Shown: in pieces, positions 1 to 8,670 of the stretch
Position numbering within the stretch: the stretch's first letter is position 1
How the letters are laid out: each line of letters starts with the position of its first letter
From: Deltaproteobacteria bacterium RIFOXYA12_FULL_61_11
GTDB taxonomy: Bacteria > Bdellovibrionota_F > JAHFAK01 > YA12-FULL-61-11
DNA length: 8,670 nt
NCBI GenBank assembly: GCA_001799195.1
Contig: MGSU01000164.1
Span: forward strand, 1-8,670
Reading direction: 5' to 3'
Program-made: the position numbers and the translations under genes
Notes under the pieces: generated by a model
What the model was told of the DNA's origin: nothing
Seen by the model: only the letters and a program-made list of their open reading frames with translations
Database searches by the model: none

Positions 1-513
1 GATTTCCGGGCCGCGGAACGGGTCTTCCAACTGGTCACGCAGGTCGCGGGGCGAGCAGGGCGGCGGGAGCGAGAGGGACGTGTGATAGTGCAGAGCTTCA
101 CCCCCGAGCACTTCGCCCTCTCCTGTGCCTTCGAGCATGATGTCGAGACCTTCTACACCCGGGAAGTCGCGGTGCGGGAAGCATGTGGTTTTCCCCCGCT
201 CTTTAGGCTCCATGCATTGCGATTGGCCGGCAAGGAACAGCTCGCGACCCAGGCCTTCGCCGTGGAGCTCGGTCTGTTCGCCCGGCAGCGACTTCGGGAG
301 TCCGGCCTGGAAGCTCGCATTCGGGTACTCGGACCCAGCGTGGCTCCGCTGGAGCGGCTCAAGGGTTGGTATCGGCACCAGCTCTTGTTGGTGAGCGAGC
401 GGGCCGGTGACCTGCAATGGCTCTCGAGGTGTCTGCTCGCTCAACTCGAAGGGGAGGCTCATCACCGAGGCCTTCGGCTCAGCGTGGACGTAGACCCCTA
501 TAGTTTTCAGTGA
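1..513 (+). CDS. priA: Primosomal protein N' (PriA helicase), C-terminal part, 5' end outside window
   Basis: PriA is the 3'-5' DNA helicase that reloads the replicative helicase at stalled or collapsed forks. The reading frame is open from the first base and ends at TGA 511-513, giving about 170 residues of the C-terminus. The start of the visible part reads DFRAAERVFQLVTQVAGRAGR, which carries helicase motif VI (QVAGRAGR). It is followed by the typical GRVIVQSFTPEH stretch and then the ACGFPPL segment, where PriA proteins usually have a YPPF-like motif. The rest matches the C-terminal domain, ending in DVDPYSFQ, which resembles the usual VDVDP.xx ending of PriA. A GTG at 82 could be called as a start but lies inside conserved helicase sequence, so the gene is simply cut by the window edge. 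The next gene begins one base after the stop, which suggests cotranscription. The assignment is strong. Confidence 0.95.
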   Translation, partial: DFRAAERVFQLVTQVAGRAGRREREGRVIVQSFTPEHFALSCAFEHDVETFYTREVAVREACGFPPLFRLHALRLAGKEQLATQAFAVELGLFARQRLRESGLEARIRVLGPSVAPLERLKGWYRHQLLLVSERAGDLQWLSRCLLAQLEGEAHHRGLRLSVDVDPYSFQ

Positions 514-514
514 G

Positions 515-829
515 GTGGATATGGCGGTGGAGAGCCCGGAACCAGGAGAACGCCGCACGACCCTGAGGAAGGACCTCGCCGAACTGCTCGGCCGGGGGGA
601 GTACGAGACCCTGGAACTGTCAAAGTTGCTCGGCATCCCGGAGCGGGAGGTGTTCGATCACCTGGAACATCTGCGTCGCAGTCTTCGGGGCCGTTTGCAG
701 ATACGTCCCGCTGGTTGTCGGAACTGTGGTTTCACCTTCGAGGATCGGCGCCGCTTGACCACCCCGGGCCGCTGTCCACGCTGCAAGGAAAGCCGCCTCA
801 CTCGTCCGCGCTTCACCGTCCGAGGTTGA
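515..829 (+). CDS. Small HTH plus zinc-ribbon transcriptional regulator (COG3357-like)
   Basis: This is a 104-residue protein. Residues about 15-60 look like a winged or simple helix-turn-helix (TLRKDLAELL, then ELSKLLGIPEREVFDHLEHL). Residues 68-90 form a zinc ribbon with C68-x2-C71 and C87-x2-C90. This order matches the family of predicted regulators with an HTH fused to a C-terminal Zn ribbon; its DNA target is unknown. The start is not settled: GTG at 515 gives the longest form, while ATG at 521 gives a protein two residues shorter. A GAGGTG sequence at 512-517 lies only 3 nt before the ATG, so neither start has an ideal ribosome binding site. The gene follows priA after one base and is probably translated from the same message. 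Its stop is 3 bp from the stop of the convergent minus-strand gene. Confidence 0.8.
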   Translation: MDMAVESPEPGERRTTLRKDLAELLGRGEYETLELSKLLGIPEREVFDHLEHLRRSLRGRLQIRPAGCRNCGFTFEDRRRLTTPGRCPRCKESRLTRPRFTVRG

Positions 830-832
830 AGG

Positions 833-1486
833 TCAGGGATAGTTCTGCGACTTCAGTTCGAGACGCGCTTTCTTCTGGTTGGCGGCGACGGCCATGCAAC
901 TCTCTTTGGCAGTGCTGAGGCAGGATACACAGTCGCCCAGGTGTTCGAGCACGGGGGCGAGTAGCTCTCCGAAGACCGGGGGGAGGGAGTTGGTCTCTAC
1001 CTCGAGTTTCTCCACCCGCATCCTCAACTTCTTCGAGGCTCGGGTACATTGCTTCAGCGCGGCCGCGCTGGTCCCGCTGCGGCGGCGCACCTTCTCGAGC
1101 TGACGCCCTTCCTTTTCCAAGCTCCCTGCTCGCTTCAACAACGAACGCCCGGTAGCGAAATGCTTGCGGGAGGAACGTTTGATTGTGGTGATATCTTTTT
1201 GATAACCTTTATTTTTTGTTTTCTTATACAGGGTGCCGAGGATGCTCGCCGCCTTGCGGTATTCGCCGCGCTGACGCAACCGAGAGGCTTCTTGATCGAG
1301 CTCGTGCAGAGCCGTCCCCGGTGCATTCGGCGAGGCGTGGGGCGTCGGACCTCCTGCTGGGTCTTGCCGCCGTTCGGAGAGGGGGGAACCTCGAGGTGAG
1401 GGCTGATCCTTTCTCGCTCGCGCTTGGGGGTCCTTTACGGAAACTCTTGTATCGGGAGGAGAAATCGGGGCGGCGGCTAGATGCAA
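833..1486 (-). CDS. Uncharacterised helical, basic protein; 5' end doubtful
   Basis: I do not recognise the family. The 217-residue frame has three parts. Residues 1-60 are Pro/Ser/Arg-rich and look disordered. Residues about 60-95 resemble one TPR-like helical hairpin (RLRQRGEYRKAASILGTLYK). Residues about 110-170 are strongly charged and probably coiled coil. The C-terminal part contains C186-x2-C189-x7-C197, which could bind a metal or form disulfides. From about residue 60 onward the amino-acid pattern looks truly coding, and the stop lies 3 bp from the convergent regulator's stop. The only start that covers the whole frame is TTG at 1486, which has no Shine-Dalgarno sequence before it, and an in-frame stop lies at 1496-1498. 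Third-position GC is low over the first 60 codons. The true start may be internal, or the gene may have lost its 5' end. A low-GC patch covers codons for KKTKNKGYQKD. Confidence 0.55.
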   Translation of the reverse strand: MHLAAAPISPPDTRVSVKDPQARARKDQPSPRGSPLSERRQDPAGGPTPHASPNAPGTALHELDQEASRLRQRGEYRKAASILGTLYKKTKNKGYQKDITTIKRSSRKHFATGRSLLKRAGSLEKEGRQLEKVRRRSGTSAAALKQCTRASKKLRMRVEKLEVETNSLPPVFGELLAPVLEHLGDCVSCLSTAKESCMAVAANQKKARLELKSQNYP

Positions 1487-1520
1487 CCCGGTACTCTACG
1501 CAACGCGACCTCCTGCTGGG
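1348..1520 (+). repeat. 14-bp direct repeat (GACCTCCTGCTGGG) flanking the truncation zone
   Basis: The sequence GACCTCCTGCTGGG occurs exactly at 1348-1361 and again at 1507-1520, 159 bp apart. Because 159 is a multiple of three, both copies read DLLLG in the caspase frame on the plus strand. The second copy marks the first recognisable caspase sequence (LLLGDS). The first copy lies in the doubtful N-terminal part of the minus-strand gene. It may be a scar of a duplication or recombination event, or a chance match. Confidence 0.5.
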
Positions 1521-2757
1521 AGACAGCATACTCCCCTTCGTCGAACTCAAGGCCACGCTCGACAAGCTCGGAGCGGACATCCGCGTGTTGATCCTCGATT
1601 CCTGTTTCAGCGGCGTGCTGATCAAGGGAGGCACCCTGGCCCGAGAGAACCGCGTGGTTATCGAACACGATTTCGAGCACGAGGGCGATGTCGTCATCTC
1701 TTCCAGTACCTATCTCGAACCGTCGATGGAATCCGACGAACTGCAATCGTCCTATTTCTCCTATTTCCTCATGGGCGCGCTGCGCGGTGAAGGCGACCTC
1801 ACCGGAGACGGGCTGGTCTCGGTGCGCGAGGCCTATCAATACGTGTACGACCGCACCTTGCTGCGCACCTCGCGTTCCGCTCCCGTGGCCCAACACCCGC
1901 GCTTCAGCTATCACTACAAGGGCAGCGGCGATGTCATCCTCACCGACCTGCGCAAGATCTCGGCGGTGCTGGTGCTACCCGCCCTGGCCAGTGGGCCGCA
2001 CCTGGTGTACGACAAGAACGCGGGGTATATCGTCCTTGAGGTCGACAAAGTACCGGGTCGCCCCCGCAGGATCAACCTTGAACCCGGCGACTACCTGGTC
2101 AGGAAGGTCGGCCTCCAACAGGTCATCGAGACCGACGTGACCTTGGCCGAGGGAGAGGTCGTACTGGCGGACTTCCTCAACGCCCGGGTCTATCCCTACA
2201 GCCACTACCTGCTCAAACGCTCCCTGGAGGGGGTTTCCTACCGCAATTACCTGCAGGTTCAGTACGCCTACTACCACCTGTACGAGCACGCTGCGAGCTT
2301 CAACCTGCTCAAACTCGGTTTCCAGAACGAATTCAACCGGTTCAGTCTGGTCAACGCGCTCCTGCTGCCGCTGCCCTCGTTCGGCACGACCGTGGCGGTC
2401 ATCAACGGGGTAGGCTATCAACTCCAGGGTCTGGTCCGCAAGACCTATCCTCTCGAACTGCTCGGCCGCACCCGCCCCCTCAGTCTGCACGCGGGCCTCG
2501 GCCTGACCGTGCTCTACCACTCCAGCCCGACCCTGGATTACGACCAGGTCCTCTCCGCCTATACCAATACCGGCCTCGGCCGCGGTAATTCCCTGCACCT
2601 GATGCCGGCCCTGACGGTCGGTACTCGCCTCTACCTCCGGCATCGGCTCTATTTCGGTTCCGAATTCGAATTCGGCAACCGTACCGACGCCGCCGCAACC
2701 GACGACCTGTTTCGGCCCTATTTCTCGACCATGTTCGGTCTCTTTCTCTCGATCTGA
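1492..2757 (+). pseudogene. Caspase-like (peptidase C14) protein with barrel-like C-terminus, 5'-truncated
   Basis: The conserved part begins at LLLGDS (from about 1510). The caspase p20 core follows: VELKATLDKLGADIRVLILDSCFSG, abbreviated here by its end DSCFSG, with the catalytic Cys codon at 1603-1605. After it come the conserved stretches VVISSSTY, SYFSYFLMGALRG, GDGLVSVREAYQYVY and QHPRFSYHYKGSGDVILTDL. From about 1950 a non-peptidase region follows, and its last 150 residues alternate hydrophobic and polar residues as in outer-membrane strands, ending in FGLFLSI. Members of this family normally start with a signal peptide, a VVGxNxG-like strand and a YYSGHG/YYSGHA catalytic-His motif. 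None of these can be found upstream in any frame. The frame stays open back to a TTG at 1216, but that stretch is the antisense of the minus-strand gene. No credible start or ribosome binding site is visible, so I treat it as a 5' fragment loss. The stop is 12 bp before the next gene. Confidence 0.7.
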
Positions 2758-2769: not shown

Positions 2770-3405
2770 ATGCGCTGCTCGACCACGGGTTTCTTCTTCT
2801 TGCTCGTACTGATGTCCCTCGGGCAGGTCCGGGCCGATCTCAGCGAGGACCTTGCCACTCCTCCACCGGCCGCTACGTCCGTTGCCCCGGTCGAGATACC
2901 GCCCGGAACCCCTCTCCCCGCGCTGGTCGTCTCCCCGGTCGACCTGTCGATGCTGCCTCTCAAAGATCCGCTGCTCGCGGCCATTCTCTCGGCGACCATG
3001 CCCGGTCTCGGGCAGATCTATTCCCGCCGGGTCCTGCGCGGCGTGGCCTTCTTGCTCGGAACCGCGGCACCCATCATCGTGGCCCAGGTCGTGACGCATC
3101 GCCAACGCGACGACCTCCAGGAAACCTTCACCATCCAGGACACCGCGGGCGCGGAGCATGTCATTTCCCAACAACCGCGCGAGCCAGACGGCGATCCGGC
3201 CAAACTCTACTCTGCCATGTCGGGCGTGGAACGCGCGGTGCTCGTCACAGGGCTCGGACTAGGCCTCGGCACCTGGATCTGGAACGTCATCGACGCCATG
3301 TTGGTGGCCGAGGACTACAACCGCCTCTTCCTCGAGACCAGCCTCTCGGTGGCCCCGTTGCCGACCGACACGGCTCTCGGGCTAGCCGTCACGGCGCGAT
3401 GGTGA
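2770..3405 (+). CDS. Secreted/membrane protein with PGLGQIYxxRxxRG motif (DUF5683-like)
   Basis: This 211-residue protein has a signal peptide at residues 1-22 (hydrophobic FFFLLVLMSLG, cut near VRA). A Pro/Ala-rich linker follows at about 30-60. The core begins with PGLGQIYSRRVLRG at 78-91, leading straight into a hydrophobic segment at 92-107. A second hydrophobic segment lies at about 156-175, followed by WNVIDAMLVAEDYN. The PGxGQxY...G motif, two membrane helices and a downstream W/D-A...A..N pattern are typical of DUF5683-like small envelope proteins, whose function is unknown. Start ATG 2770 has AGGAGG upstream. The gene sits 12 bp behind the caspase fragment and overlaps the glycosyltransferase start by 7 bp, so the three were probably one operon. 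An envelope role beside the barrel-like caspase protein is inference. Confidence 0.75.
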   Translation: MRCSTTGFFFLLVLMSLGQVRADLSEDLATPPPAATSVAPVEIPPGTPLPALVVSPVDLSMLPLKDPLLAAILSATMPGLGQIYSRRVLRGVAFLLGTAAPIIVAQVVTHRQRDDLQETFTIQDTAGAEHVISQQPREPDGDPAKLYSAMSGVERAVLVTGLGLGLGTWIWNVIDAMLVAEDYNRLFLETSLSVAPLPTDTALGLAVTARW

Positions 3406-4634
3406 CGGCTCGTACGAACCGCCGCCCTCTCCGCCTGCTCCTGGTCATCGACCAGTTCCCACCTCTGATCGGCGGCGCCGAACGCCAGGCCGAGTTGCTC
3501 TGCAGAGAACTGGCCTCGCGTGGGCATGACCTCGAGGTCTTGACCCTCTGGAAACCCGGTCTGTCTTTCCACGAACACCGCCACGGCTTCCTTATCACCC
3601 GGGTCCCGGCCGCCCTTGATCTGCCCAAGCTGCGCTACCCTGCGTCACTTGTGGATTTCACCCTGGGAGTGCGCTCGAGGTTGCCCCGCGTCGACGTCGT
3701 TCAGGTGGTACAGGCTATCTATCCGGCCTTCTGTGCCGTACTGGCCGCACGGGGCACTACCGTACCCGTGGTGGTCAAGTGCTCGGCCGGCGGCGAGCTC
3801 TTCGACCTGACCGCCCTGGCCCGGGACTACCCCTTGGGCCGTTACATGGTACCGCTCCTCGCCCGGGGAGCAACGCGCTTCGTCGCCGTTGCCCCCCATC
3901 AGCATACCGACCTCGCCCTTCACGGAATCGAACCTACAAGAATCGCGACGATACCGAACGGAGTCGTACTGCCGGCCATCCTCGATCCTGGCCGCCGCGC
4001 CGCACGGCGCCGGGCACTCGGCTTTACCGCTGCCCCCCTCTGGCTCTGTCTCGGCCGCCTGATCCCCATCAAAGGGCATTGCACCGCACTCGAGGCCTTC
4101 GCCTTGTTGCCCCGGGAAAGACGAGGCACGCTCGTGCTCCTCGGTGACGGTCCTCTGCAACCTGCTCTCGCCGCGCGAGCAGCCCAACCCGACCTCGCGG
4201 GCTCGGTCGAAGTGCTCGGAGCTCGCGCTGAGGCCCTCGATTACCTCTCCGTGGCCGACTACCTGCTCCAACCATCCCTTCTCGAGGGACTCTCGAATGC
4301 GGTACTCGAAGCCCTGGCCGCCGGGGTGCCGGTGGTGGCCTCGGACCTGCCCTCGCACCGCTACCTCCAAGGACTCGGGGCCTCTCCCCCTCCTCTCCGG
4401 CTCTGTCCACCGGGCGATCCGGGGAGGTGGCGCGACGCAATGGTGTCTTTGCTGGAAAACCCTGGGTTCGCCCGGGAAGTGGGTGCCTCCGGCCGGGCCC
4501 TGGCCGAACAGCACTTCGCCCTCTCCGGGGTGACGGACCGCTATGAAGCTCTCTACGCCGGTTTGCTCTCGGCCTCATCCACAAAGGCCACTCCGCGCTC
4601 CCCGCTCTTGCCGAGGAGGCCCAAGAAACGCTGA
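3399..4634 (+). CDS. GT4-type glycosyltransferase (GT-B fold)
   Basis: This 411-residue protein has the two Rossmann-like halves of a retaining GT-B enzyme. The N-terminal half opens with LLVIDQFPPLIGGAERQ (residues 13-30), the acceptor-side GGAE motif typical of family GT4. The second half begins near IPNGV (185-189). It then carries LCLGRLIPIKG (217-226, with the Arg and Lys that usually bind the nucleotide-sugar diphosphate), LLGDGP (247-252) and EGLSNAVLE (296-304), the E-x7-E donor-binding motif. It probably transfers a sugar from a nucleotide donor to a surface polysaccharide or lipid; the acceptor cannot be told. No membrane segment is evident, so it should act at the cytoplasmic face. 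ATG 3399 lies inside the preceding gene's last codons (ATGGTGA), implying translational coupling; GTG 3402 is an alternative. The last 27 codons, rich in Pro, Arg and Lys, overlap the convergent DHH gene. Confidence 0.88.
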   Translation: MVTARTNRRPLRLLLVIDQFPPLIGGAERQAELLCRELASRGHDLEVLTLWKPGLSFHEHRHGFLITRVPAALDLPKLRYPASLVDFTLGVRSRLPRVDVVQVVQAIYPAFCAVLAARGTTVPVVVKCSAGGELFDLTALARDYPLGRYMVPLLARGATRFVAVAPHQHTDLALHGIEPTRIATIPNGVVLPAILDPGRRAARRRALGFTAAPLWLCLGRLIPIKGHCTALEAFALLPRERRGTLVLLGDGPLQPALAARAAQPDLAGSVEVLGARAEALDYLSVADYLLQPSLLEGLSNAVLEALAAGVPVVASDLPSHRYLQGLGASPPPLRLCPPGDPGRWRDAMVSLLENPGFAREVGASGRALAEQHFALSGVTDRYEALYAGLLSASSTKATPRSPLLPRRPKKR

Positions 4635-5587
4635 CAAAGCTGGTCCCGAATCGTCGAATAGTGCTCGGGAATCGCGGGATCGAGCACAATTTTACCCCCG
4701 GCGGTCTGAACATGCCCTCCCCCACTGCCCACACCATGGACGAGGGCTTTCATCACTCTGCCGGCACTCCTGCGAGTACTGGTGGTACGGATGCTCAGGT
4801 ACAGTGTTCCCTGGTACCGACCCACTGCCAGGACCCATCTCACCCCCTCGCAGCGCAGCAGCAGCTCACAGACCTCGGGGATGAACTCGGGGTTGGGCGC
4901 CTCGTCGCAGCGGGTGACGAGCACCGTGGAAAACCGGCTGGTATGGCCGAGCGCGTACCTGAGTGTCTGGAAATACACAGGCGGGTGCCGAGCATGCTCG
5001 ATGCGTCCGAGCATCTTCTTGCTGGCAAGCCGGAAACAGCGCACATAGACCTCTTCGGTCATGCGGTTGCAGTCCCGCTGGAGATCCAGGGTTTCGGTGC
5101 GGAGGGCATAGACCAGAGCCGTGGCCAACGAGCGATCGAGGGGAATGCCGAAGTGGTCGAGGTAGGGCACGAGCAAGAGAGCCGTGGCCGCGGCAGCCTC
5201 GTCCAGGTGCGAGAAATCGTACTCGCGGAACCGTCGAGGAGGATGATGATCGAAGACCATCAGCTTGCTCGGCCGTTCTCGCAAGGGATTGTTGCCACTA
5301 CCGAACTGGGTGTCGACCAGGATGGTCAGGTCGAAACGTCTGCGCCGCAGCTCGCGGTAGGGTACCAAGGGCACGCGGAGCAAGGTGACCATGGCCTGGT
5401 TCTCAACCCGCCCGATGATGCCATCGTAGCCGAGGGTCACCCTCGCCCTCGGGACGATCACCGCGGCAAGGCGCAGAATGGCCATTCCAGCGGCAAAGGT
5501 ATCGGGATCGGGGTTGTCGTGCGTCAGCACCAGGATATTCCGGGCGCTCCCAAGGAGCTCGGCGAAGTGGGCATACGGACCGGTCAT
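4553..5587 (-). CDS. DHH-family phosphoesterase (NrnA-like: oligoribonuclease/PAP phosphatase type)
   Basis: This 344-residue protein has the two-domain DHH-DHHA1 layout. Motif I is THDNPDPDTFAAG at 22-34 with metal ligands H23, D27 and D29. Motif II is VDTQ with D92. Motif III is DHH at 113-115. A fourth motif reads RTETLDL at 163-169, where relatives usually show TDT. The DHHA1 substrate-binding loop is GSGGGH at 287-292. Length and order fit NrnA-like enzymes, which degrade nano-RNAs and/or remove the 3'-phosphate of pAp, or related cyclic-dinucleotide hydrolases; substrate cannot be decided from sequence alone. Start ATG 5587 is preceded by GAGGAG (5594-5599 on the plus-strand numbering) at 6 nt spacing. 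The 3' end overlaps the glycosyltransferase by 82 bp on opposite strands. It lies 241 bp downstream of the HMG-CoA synthase operon on the same strand, so it may be a fourth, loosely linked gene or have its own promoter. Confidence 0.87.
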   Translation of the reverse strand: MTGPYAHFAELLGSARNILVLTHDNPDPDTFAAGMAILRLAAVIVPRARVTLGYDGIIGRVENQAMVTLLRVPLVPYRELRRRRFDLTILVDTQFGSGNNPLRERPSKLMVFDHHPPRRFREYDFSHLDEAAAATALLLVPYLDHFGIPLDRSLATALVYALRTETLDLQRDCNRMTEEVYVRCFRLASKKMLGRIEHARHPPVYFQTLRYALGHTSRFSTVLVTRCDEAPNPEFIPEVCELLLRCEGVRWVLAVGRYQGTLYLSIRTTSTRRSAGRVMKALVHGVGSGGGHVQTAGGKIVLDPAIPEHYSTIRDQLCQRFLGLLGKSGERGVAFVDEAESKPA

Positions 5588-5828: not shown

Positions 5829-6221
5829 TCAGGGCTGGAGGACGGCTTTCAAGCCATAGGCCAGGACCCCTGCCTCACCGTCGGCCTGGATGCGGCGGAA
5901 TTCGAGTGTGACCCGTTTTCCGATGGCGAGCTTGCTGGGATCCGTGTCGGCAACCTGGCAGGTCAGAGCCACACCATCGTCGAGTTTGACGATGGCCACG
6001 GCATAGGGCACCTGGTCGACGAATTGGCTCGGGGCTACCCGTATCACCGTGTACGTCTCAATCGTCCCCGTGTTCTTCAAGGTGATGGGGACGAATTCCC
6101 GACACTGGCACTCCGGACAAATCAGTCGATGCGGATACGCGATGTACCCGCATTGCTTACACCTGCTCGCCTCGAGGCGGTAACGATGGGGAATCTCACG
6201 CCAGTAACGCGCCGTGGACAT
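5829..6221 (-). CDS. Zn-ribbon/OB-fold (DUF35) protein bridging thiolase and HMG-CoA synthase
   Basis: This protein of 130 residues starts with the helix-like N-terminus usual in DUF35 proteins (RYWREIPHRYRLEA). A rubredoxin-like zinc ribbon follows, C21-x2-C24-x10-C35-x2-C38, and then an OB-fold domain (about 45-130: GTIETYTVIRVAP, PYAVAIVKLDDG, GKRVTLEFRR). In the characterised archaeal complex such a protein holds thiolase and HMG-CoA synthase together around a shared CoA-binding tunnel, so that acetoacetyl-CoA passes directly between them. Gene order here fits that role. I chose ATG 6221 because GGAGGT (6228-6233, plus numbering) lies 6 nt before it. The longer GTG 6227 start abuts that site with no spacing. 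The thiolase stop TGA overlaps this ATG as TGATG, a translational-coupling arrangement. Confidence 0.88.
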   Translation of the reverse strand: MSTARYWREIPHRYRLEASRCKQCGYIAYPHRLICPECQCREFVPITLKNTGTIETYTVIRVAPSQFVDQVPYAVAIVKLDDGVALTCQVADTDPSKLAIGKRVTLEFRRIQADGEAGVLAYGLKAVLQP

Positions 6222-7381
6222 CAGCACACCTCCAGGATATGAACGATCGAACTGCCGCCCGTGCCGCCCATGTTCTGGGTCAAGCCTCGCCGAGCCCCCT
6301 TGACCTGCCGTTCACCGGCCTCGCCGCGAAGGTGCTTGGCGACTTCCAGGATCTGGGCCACGCCCGTTGCACCGACCGGATGCCCCTTGGACTTCAGCCC
6401 GCCGCTGACATTGACCGGGATCTTGCCGTCCGCCGTGGTGAGCTTCTGGTCGATGGCCTTCCCCCCTTGGCCCCGTTCGCACAGACCCAAGGCTTCGATG
6501 ACACAGATCTCGGCAATGGTGAAACAATCGTGGAGTTCGACCAGATCGAGCTCACCGGGTCCGCACTTGGCCATGTCATAGGCCTTCCGAGCCGCGTGCT
6601 GAGTGGCTTCGAGGAAGGTCAGGTCCTTGCGAGCATGGAGCGCAATGGTGTCGGTCGAGTGTCCTACCCCCGCGATGCGCACGATTGGACGGCCTTTGGC
6701 CAGTTTCTTGGCCACGTCCATGGAGGCCAACAGCACCGCTGCGGCACCATCCGTGATGGGGGAACAGTCGAGGATGTGCAGAGGATCTGCGATCAGGGTA
6801 GACTCCAGGACCGTCTTCACGTCGACCTTGTAGGGATACTGGGCCAGAGGGTTGCGCGACCCATTTGCGTGGTTCTTGACCGCGACCTGGGCAAGCTGTT
6901 CTTTCGTGGTCCCGTATTTCTTCATGTGCGCATGGGCAATCATGGCGTACAGGCCAGGGAAGGTAACCCCATGGTACGCCTCGTACTCCTGGTCCGAGGC
7001 CGTGGCCAGGGCATAGGTGGAGGCATTGCCGTCCACGTCGGTCATCTTCTCCACACCGGCGGCGAGCACCACGTCGCTGGCGCCGCTGGCGATCTCGTAA
7101 TAGGCTGACTTGACCGCTAGACCGCCCGAGGCGCACGCGGATTCGACCCGCGTCGCTGGGAGGGAACGCTGGCCAAGGTAATCGGCCAGCATGGAACCGA
7201 GATGTTCCTGGCCGACGAAGAGCCCTCCGGACATGCAACCGATATACATGCTGTCGATGCGGTCGACCCCGGCATCATCAAGGGCATCGATCGCGGCTTC
7301 GGTGAAGATGGTGCGCAGGGACTGCTCCCACAGCTCACCCCATTTGCGCATCCCAAGTCCGATCACTGCAACGTCTCTCAT
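6221..7381 (-). CDS. Acetyl-CoA C-acetyltransferase (thiolase, archaeal/SCPx type)
   Basis: This 386-residue thiolase-fold enzyme condenses two acetyl-CoA to acetoacetyl-CoA (or runs in reverse). The nucleophilic Cys is C83 in ESACASG. The second conserved motif is LHDCFTIAE with H284, the HDxF form of archaeal and SCP-x thiolases in place of the NEAF of classical biosynthetic thiolases. H334 lies in [14 protein letters not shown]. The C-terminal Cys of classical thiolases (CxGxG) is absent; the corresponding place reads [11 protein letters not shown], again as in the archaeal/SCP-x group. Start ATG 7381 is preceded by AGGAGG (7387-7392, plus numbering) at 5 nt, overlapping the end of the HMG-CoA synthase gene. 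It lies 10 bp behind the synthase gene and shares a base with the OB-fold gene, so all three should be made in step. A different acyl-CoA substrate is possible but less likely next to a synthase of this type. Confidence 0.92.
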
Positions 7382-7391
7382 GATCTCCTCC

Positions 7392-8441
7392 TCACTCCTT
7401 GCGGATCTTGCCCCGATATTTCACATAGGTGCCGTAATCAATATAGGTTTTGTTCTCCTCGAGTTGGGTCCGAGTCTTCGGTGCCAGATCTCGGACCTCC
7501 TCGATGCGCGAGGTGACCTCAAGGATGAACCCGTCGCTACCGGCGCCCGAACCGTAGGAGACCATCAGGATCTTATCGCCCTTCTTGGCCACATCGAGAG
7601 AAGCGGTCAGACCGAGCGGTGAGGCTCCCGAATACGTGTTGCCCAAGGTCGGCGAGAGCCAACCCGGTCCGGTCTGCTCCCGCGAGAAACCGAGCATCTT
7701 CCCGGCCCGGTCCGGGAACTTCCCGTTGGGTTGGTGGAAGACTGCGTAGGTGAAATCCTTGGCCGACATCCCGGCCATGCTCATGATCCGCTCTGCTGCG
7801 CCGAGCACGTGTTTGAAATAGGCCGGTTCTCCTGTGAAACGCCCGGCATGGCGCGGATAGTGTTGGTACTCGCGGCGCCAGAAGTCCGGAGTGTCGGTCA
7901 TATACGAATTGGTGTACAGGATTTCGGCCACGATCTTGTCTTTGTCGGCTCCCATGATATAGGCGGCGGCCCCTGCCGCTGCCGAGTACTCCAGGGCATC
8001 ACCCGGGCACCCCTGGGAGGTATCGGCGCCGATACCGAGGCCGTACTTGATCTCACCGGCCTTAACCAGACCGTAGGTCACAAACATCGCTTCCGCACCC
8101 GCCTTGCAGGCGAATTCGAAATCCACGCAATGCAGATCCGGGGTTGCTCCGATGGCCTCGGCGACCACCGTGCCGCTCGGCTTGACCGCATAGGGATGCG
8201 ATTCCGAACCGATGTAGATCGCCCCCAGTTCGCGGGCGGGTATCCCTGCTCTCACCAACGCGGACTTGGCCGCCTCGACCGACATGGTGATGGTGTCCTG
8301 GTCCGGCCCCGGCACCGATTTCTCTTGGAGCATCAAGCCTTTCTTGTAGCTCGGAGCATCAGCGCCCCAGACTTTCGCGATCTCTTCGACCTTGATCCTG
8401 AAACGGGGGATATAGGCCCCATACCCGATGATACCAACCAT
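7392..8441 (-). CDS. Hydroxymethylglutaryl-CoA synthase, archaeal type
   Basis: The enzyme condenses acetyl-CoA with acetoacetyl-CoA to HMG-CoA, the precursor of mevalonate. The catalytic triad is visible: E80 in [14 protein letters not shown]112 in FEFACKAG and H236 in [11 protein letters not shown]. Other landmarks are the N-terminal [14 protein letters not shown], the [11 protein letters not shown] loop (138-148) and the GSGAGSDGF loop near the C-terminus (297-305). The length of 349 residues matches archaeal enzymes (about 345-350) and is shorter than eukaryotic and Gram-positive ones. The frame could begin upstream at 8507 (GTG-like start) or at ATG 8456, but ATG 8441 begins the conserved MVGIIGYG and has GGAGGT 7 nt before it. 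It is the first gene of the three-gene operon. The cluster type is the one known for archaeal thiolase-synthase complexes, here in a bacterial genome. Confidence 0.93.
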
Positions 8442-8448
8442 TCCCGGA

Positions 8449-8657: not shown

Positions 8658-8670
8658 GGGACACTGCCGA

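Follow-up and report, generated by a model that had tools for sequence, protein, structure and literature searches.

The locus raises the question of whether a bacterial caspase gene has lost its 5' half in the cell or in the assembly. The window, which is the entire contig C164 (8670 bases), comes from a draft, metagenome-derived genome of a sparsely sampled phylum (342 contigs totalling 4.64 Mb, with a completeness of 87%). A sequence-only reading of the window had proposed that two head-to-head genes lost their 5' ends in one step, by removal of the DNA between them, leaving a catalytically dead caspase; an assembly join had been named as the alternative. The analysis presented here indicates that the window is very probably a wrongly joined contig, and that the truncation most likely reflects an assembly fault instead of a lost or dead gene. 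The features on which the argument draws are listed in Table 1.

Table 1. Features at and around the break in the caspase gene (window coordinates unless C299 is named)
Feature	Position	Strand	Remarks
priA 3' end (PriA C-terminal domain)	1..513	+	PF18074, 1.9e-16; truncated by contig start; left segment
PF0610-like HTH / zinc-ribbon protein	515..829	+	PF21476, PF23470; left segment
Orphan ORF	833..1486	-	Open frame reaches the break; start is TTG at 1486
14-base exact direct repeat GACCTCCTGCTGGG, copy one	1348..1361	+	One of two genome copies
Inter-repeat stretch	1362..1506	.	Weak coding signal in every frame
14-base exact direct repeat GACCTCCTGCTGGG, copy two	1507..1520	+	Codes for DLLLG, onset of clear caspase homology
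Peptidase_C14 (bacterial metacaspase) gene, 3' part	about 1507..2757	+	Remainder of caspase domain with DSCFSG cysteine motif; C-terminal region
DUF5683 protein	2770..3405	+	PF18935, 5.3e-7; directly 3' of the caspase
GT4-type glycosyltransferase	3399..4634	+	PF13692, PF13439; 3' of the DUF5683 gene
ECF sigma factor, anti-sigma-like gene, caspase 5' end	C299 1-1695	-	At contig end

The caspase piece in the window carries the cysteine motif DSC.SG of metacaspases (p20 fold) as ILDSCFSG, and its caspase region shares 36-44% identity with the best family members from other genomes. When a profile was built from six relatives, the translation in the caspase frame matched it with 194 bits up to the end of the caspase region; the homology sets in abruptly at about 1492-1510 (YSTQRD-LLLGDS), and none of the profile positions before the histidine is matched by that translation. 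Codon usage in the caspase frame likewise turns on sharply near 1505. In relatives, the sequence 5' of this point encodes a signal peptide, the strand ALLVG.N.GG and the histidine motif YYSGH. The absence of a 5' end before LLLGDS, as first described, is thus borne out, with nothing upstream resembling an N-terminus, and alignment with the family puts the loss at about 120 N-terminal residues that comprise all three elements. An N-terminus suggested by MAFFT, which placed YSTQRD under YSGHSD, was rejected as the profile did not extend the alignment. Against Pfam PF00656 alone the piece scores weakly (13.3 bits, below the cut-off of 21.4), and both it (49.4 bits) and the intact paralogue described below (63.0 bits) fall under the curated cut-off of 140 bits for the EACC1-associated caspases (NF047832). 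The C-terminal region (2215-2757) is rich in aromatic, strand-like stretches, ends in the residues FLSI and may form an outer-membrane barrel.

On the left side of the break, a codon-usage scan gives the minus-strand ORF a good signal over about 836-1310 and detects no coding signal in any frame over about 1330-1500. The description of this gene as one with an unsupported TTG start and a poorly coding beginning is confirmed in part; an open frame of 60 codons is not unusual at this G+C content. The homologue search for its protein gave no convincing relative; a weak match inside an apparent pyruvate phosphate dikinase was judged to be chance, and three further weak matches showed 27-28% identity. 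An AT-rich stretch (1180-1230) lies within this ORF, and G+C is about 0.5 over 1100-1299 compared with about 0.6 around it. The priA end at the contig start is the best, and probably the sole, PriA match in the genome, and the N-terminal part of priA was not found elsewhere in the genome. No clear second priA copy, which would mark the left half as foreign, is present in the genome, and contamination of that half is therefore not supported. The sequence that truly adjoins the left segment was not found. To the right, the DUF5683 gene has an AGGAGG ribosome site at about 2760-2765, and further on there are consecutive minus-strand genes (5829-8444) of OB-fold/ChsH2-like, thiolase-like and HMG-CoA-synthase-like type, the latter two named from their translations only.

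The break is flanked by the direct repeat GACCTCCTGCTGGG, whose two copies, spaced by 159 bases, are the only ones on either strand of the whole 4.64 Mb. Among the 14-mers in the 23 kb examined, no other recurs within 200 bases. Since clear caspase homology starts with the residues that the second copy encodes, a chance occurrence is unlikely; the repeat could come from a scaffolding or gap-closing step or from a microhomology event. Neither the 1200-1700 stretch nor the C299 end was found a second time; such a duplicate might have caused a repeat-driven break. The junction is placed within the inter-repeat stretch or at its right end, most likely at 1485-1507.

A candidate for the missing half of the caspase lies at the end of another contig. 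When the N-terminal part of the family served as query, the genome gave two matches, one to an intact paralogue (C49) and one to a fragment (C299); an earlier scan of the genome contigs with a single protein had given no match. The family in this genome thus consists of one intact member (C49), one N-terminal half without a C-terminal half (C299) and one C-terminal half without an N-terminal half (the window). On C299 (5511 bases), the fragment occupies positions 3-263 of the minus strand, reads MSVRASAFLLLILTAFGAEAEERLALIVGNNDGG...LVDLARSI and is cut off by the contig end at base 1. It bears the signal peptide and first strand, scores 22.5 bits against PF00656 (positions 2-60), and belongs to the window caspase only if both pieces are one gene. 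Further genes on this contig are SurE-, PCMT- and DedA-like, as judged by their translations only. The contig also contains an 11-N gap at about 5374-5384, and the assembly therefore underwent scaffolding. The intact paralogue (C49 6683-9043, minus strand, about 774-787 residues) differs from the window caspase at the C-terminus, which in the paralogue matches a surface-repeat family (LA_2272 repeat, NF047436) and in the window piece is shorter and unlike it.

Several lines of evidence connect the C299 fragment with the window piece, and we infer from them that the two are one gene. Their coverage of the Pfam C14 domain is complementary (positions 2-60 and 88-196). When placed on 104 relatives, the gap between the halves has a median of 24 codons; 64 relatives show just this value and 92 fall in the range 23-25. 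These 24 intervening codons are in neither contig, so that no overlap joins the two pieces, and a YYSGHS pattern matches only the C49 paralogue genome-wide. The histidine motif, absent from the window, would have its codons in this very gap; the proposal of a catalytically dead caspase is accordingly left unsupported. The gene context agrees. A sigma factor lies directly upstream on the same strand in all 16 of the closest relatives examined and at 61 of 87 loci overall. The window has no such gene upstream of its caspase piece, but on C299 sigma-factor and anti-sigma-like genes stand in this position, next to the N-terminal half. Both caspase halves fall within a single ORF in 86 of 87 relatives. 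The DUF5683 gene was not seen downstream of the caspase in the relatives checked, and synteny therefore backs the upstream side only. In a comparison over 103 relatives, similarity to the C299 N-terminal half correlates with similarity to the window C-terminal half (Spearman rho 0.55), compared with a rho of -0.12 for the C49 N-terminal half against the window; the correlation is support for one gene, not proof, as it could reflect a shared subfamily. Finally, the continuation of the caspase is located at a contig end, C299 base 1, and by our own arithmetic the chance that a correctly oriented contig end lies at most 72 bases from a given point is about 0.005 (342 ends, 4.64 Mb).

These observations bear on how the contig came about. 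With the 5' half present at the end of C299 behind a sigma factor, there was most likely no deletion between divergent neighbours, and what lies left of the caspase in C164 very probably does not adjoin it in reality. The one-step loss is in this way left without support, and the assembly join gains favour from the position of the missing half, which ends C299 in a conserved operon context. The true order would be ECF sigma factor, anti-sigma-like protein, full-length secreted caspase, DUF5683 protein and glycosyltransferase. The operon would have broken within the caspase gene during draft assembly, with the 5' half going to the end of C299 (minus strand, base 1) and the 3' half to the window from about 1507, such that the reversed C299 would be followed by about 72 unassembled bases and then by C164 from its base 1507 or so up to its end at 8670. 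The first 1.36-1.5 kb of the window, with the priA end, the PF0610-like gene and the orphan ORF, would come from another place and have been misjoined to the caspase, possibly in scaffolding or gap closing. The join would then be an artefact absent from the cell, which on this reading probably carries a full-length caspase.

A real rearrangement, fixed or present in part of the population, might instead have split the caspase and moved its 3' half beside the priA side, with the repeat as a scar. A 14-base repeat that is found nowhere else in the genome would suit a microhomology event, and a strain variant in the sampled population would likewise end contigs at such points. However, neither a mobile element nor a longer repeat was found at the break, and C299 ends exactly where the rearranged gene should run on, a coincidence with the low chance calculated above if the rearrangement is fixed; this explanation is considered unlikely. 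The narrower version, in which a rearrangement guided by the repeat split the sigma-linked operon in some or all cells and left a fragment without the histidine half, is slightly less likely again.

Two further explanations carry little weight. C299 might hold a third caspase whose 3' half is unassembled, the window caspase having really lost its 5' end together with the DNA between two divergent genes, as first proposed; in a genome that is just 87% complete, the 3' half of a third paralogue could be missing. Such an account requires two independent losses that are complementary by chance, and it has to contend with the agreement of the relatives' similarity scores for both pieces, which makes it improbable. 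Lastly, the caspase might be intact but short, or 1216-1506 might encode an N-terminus that has diverged or suffered a frameshift, as the caspase frame is open back to 1216. Yet all six frames of 1291-1509 resembled the N-terminal caspase domain no more than shuffled sequences did, and the N-terminus is therefore missing, neither diverged nor frameshifted. Together with the lack of coding signal at 1330-1500 and the location of the N-terminal half in the same ORF in nearly all relatives, this result leaves hardly any room for a short or diverged caspase.

The window has known counterparts on both the technical and the biological side. It resembles chimeric contigs in metagenome-assembled genomes in that gene halves lie on separate contigs, a contig end coincides with the break and the assembly was scaffolded, whereas its left side is unpaired with a true neighbour. 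A sigma-70/metacaspase operon has been published for Myxococcus xanthus, Anaeromyxobacter, Haliangium and Sorangium (PLoS One 2012, PMC3501461). The arrangement on C299, where genes for an ECF sigma factor and an anti-sigma-like protein lie upstream, is like these operons, which occur in Myxococcota and others. It differs from them in that the caspase is split over two contigs and comes from a genome of a different, sparsely sampled phylum, and from the relatives checked in having a DUF5683 gene 3' of the caspase.

The reassignment keeps a dead caspase and a paired gene loss from being recorded in error, and it means that the gene order of C164 left of about 1507 is unreliable. For the caspase family, a known type of sigma-factor/caspase operon would be recovered, by joining the two contigs, in a sparsely sampled phylum.
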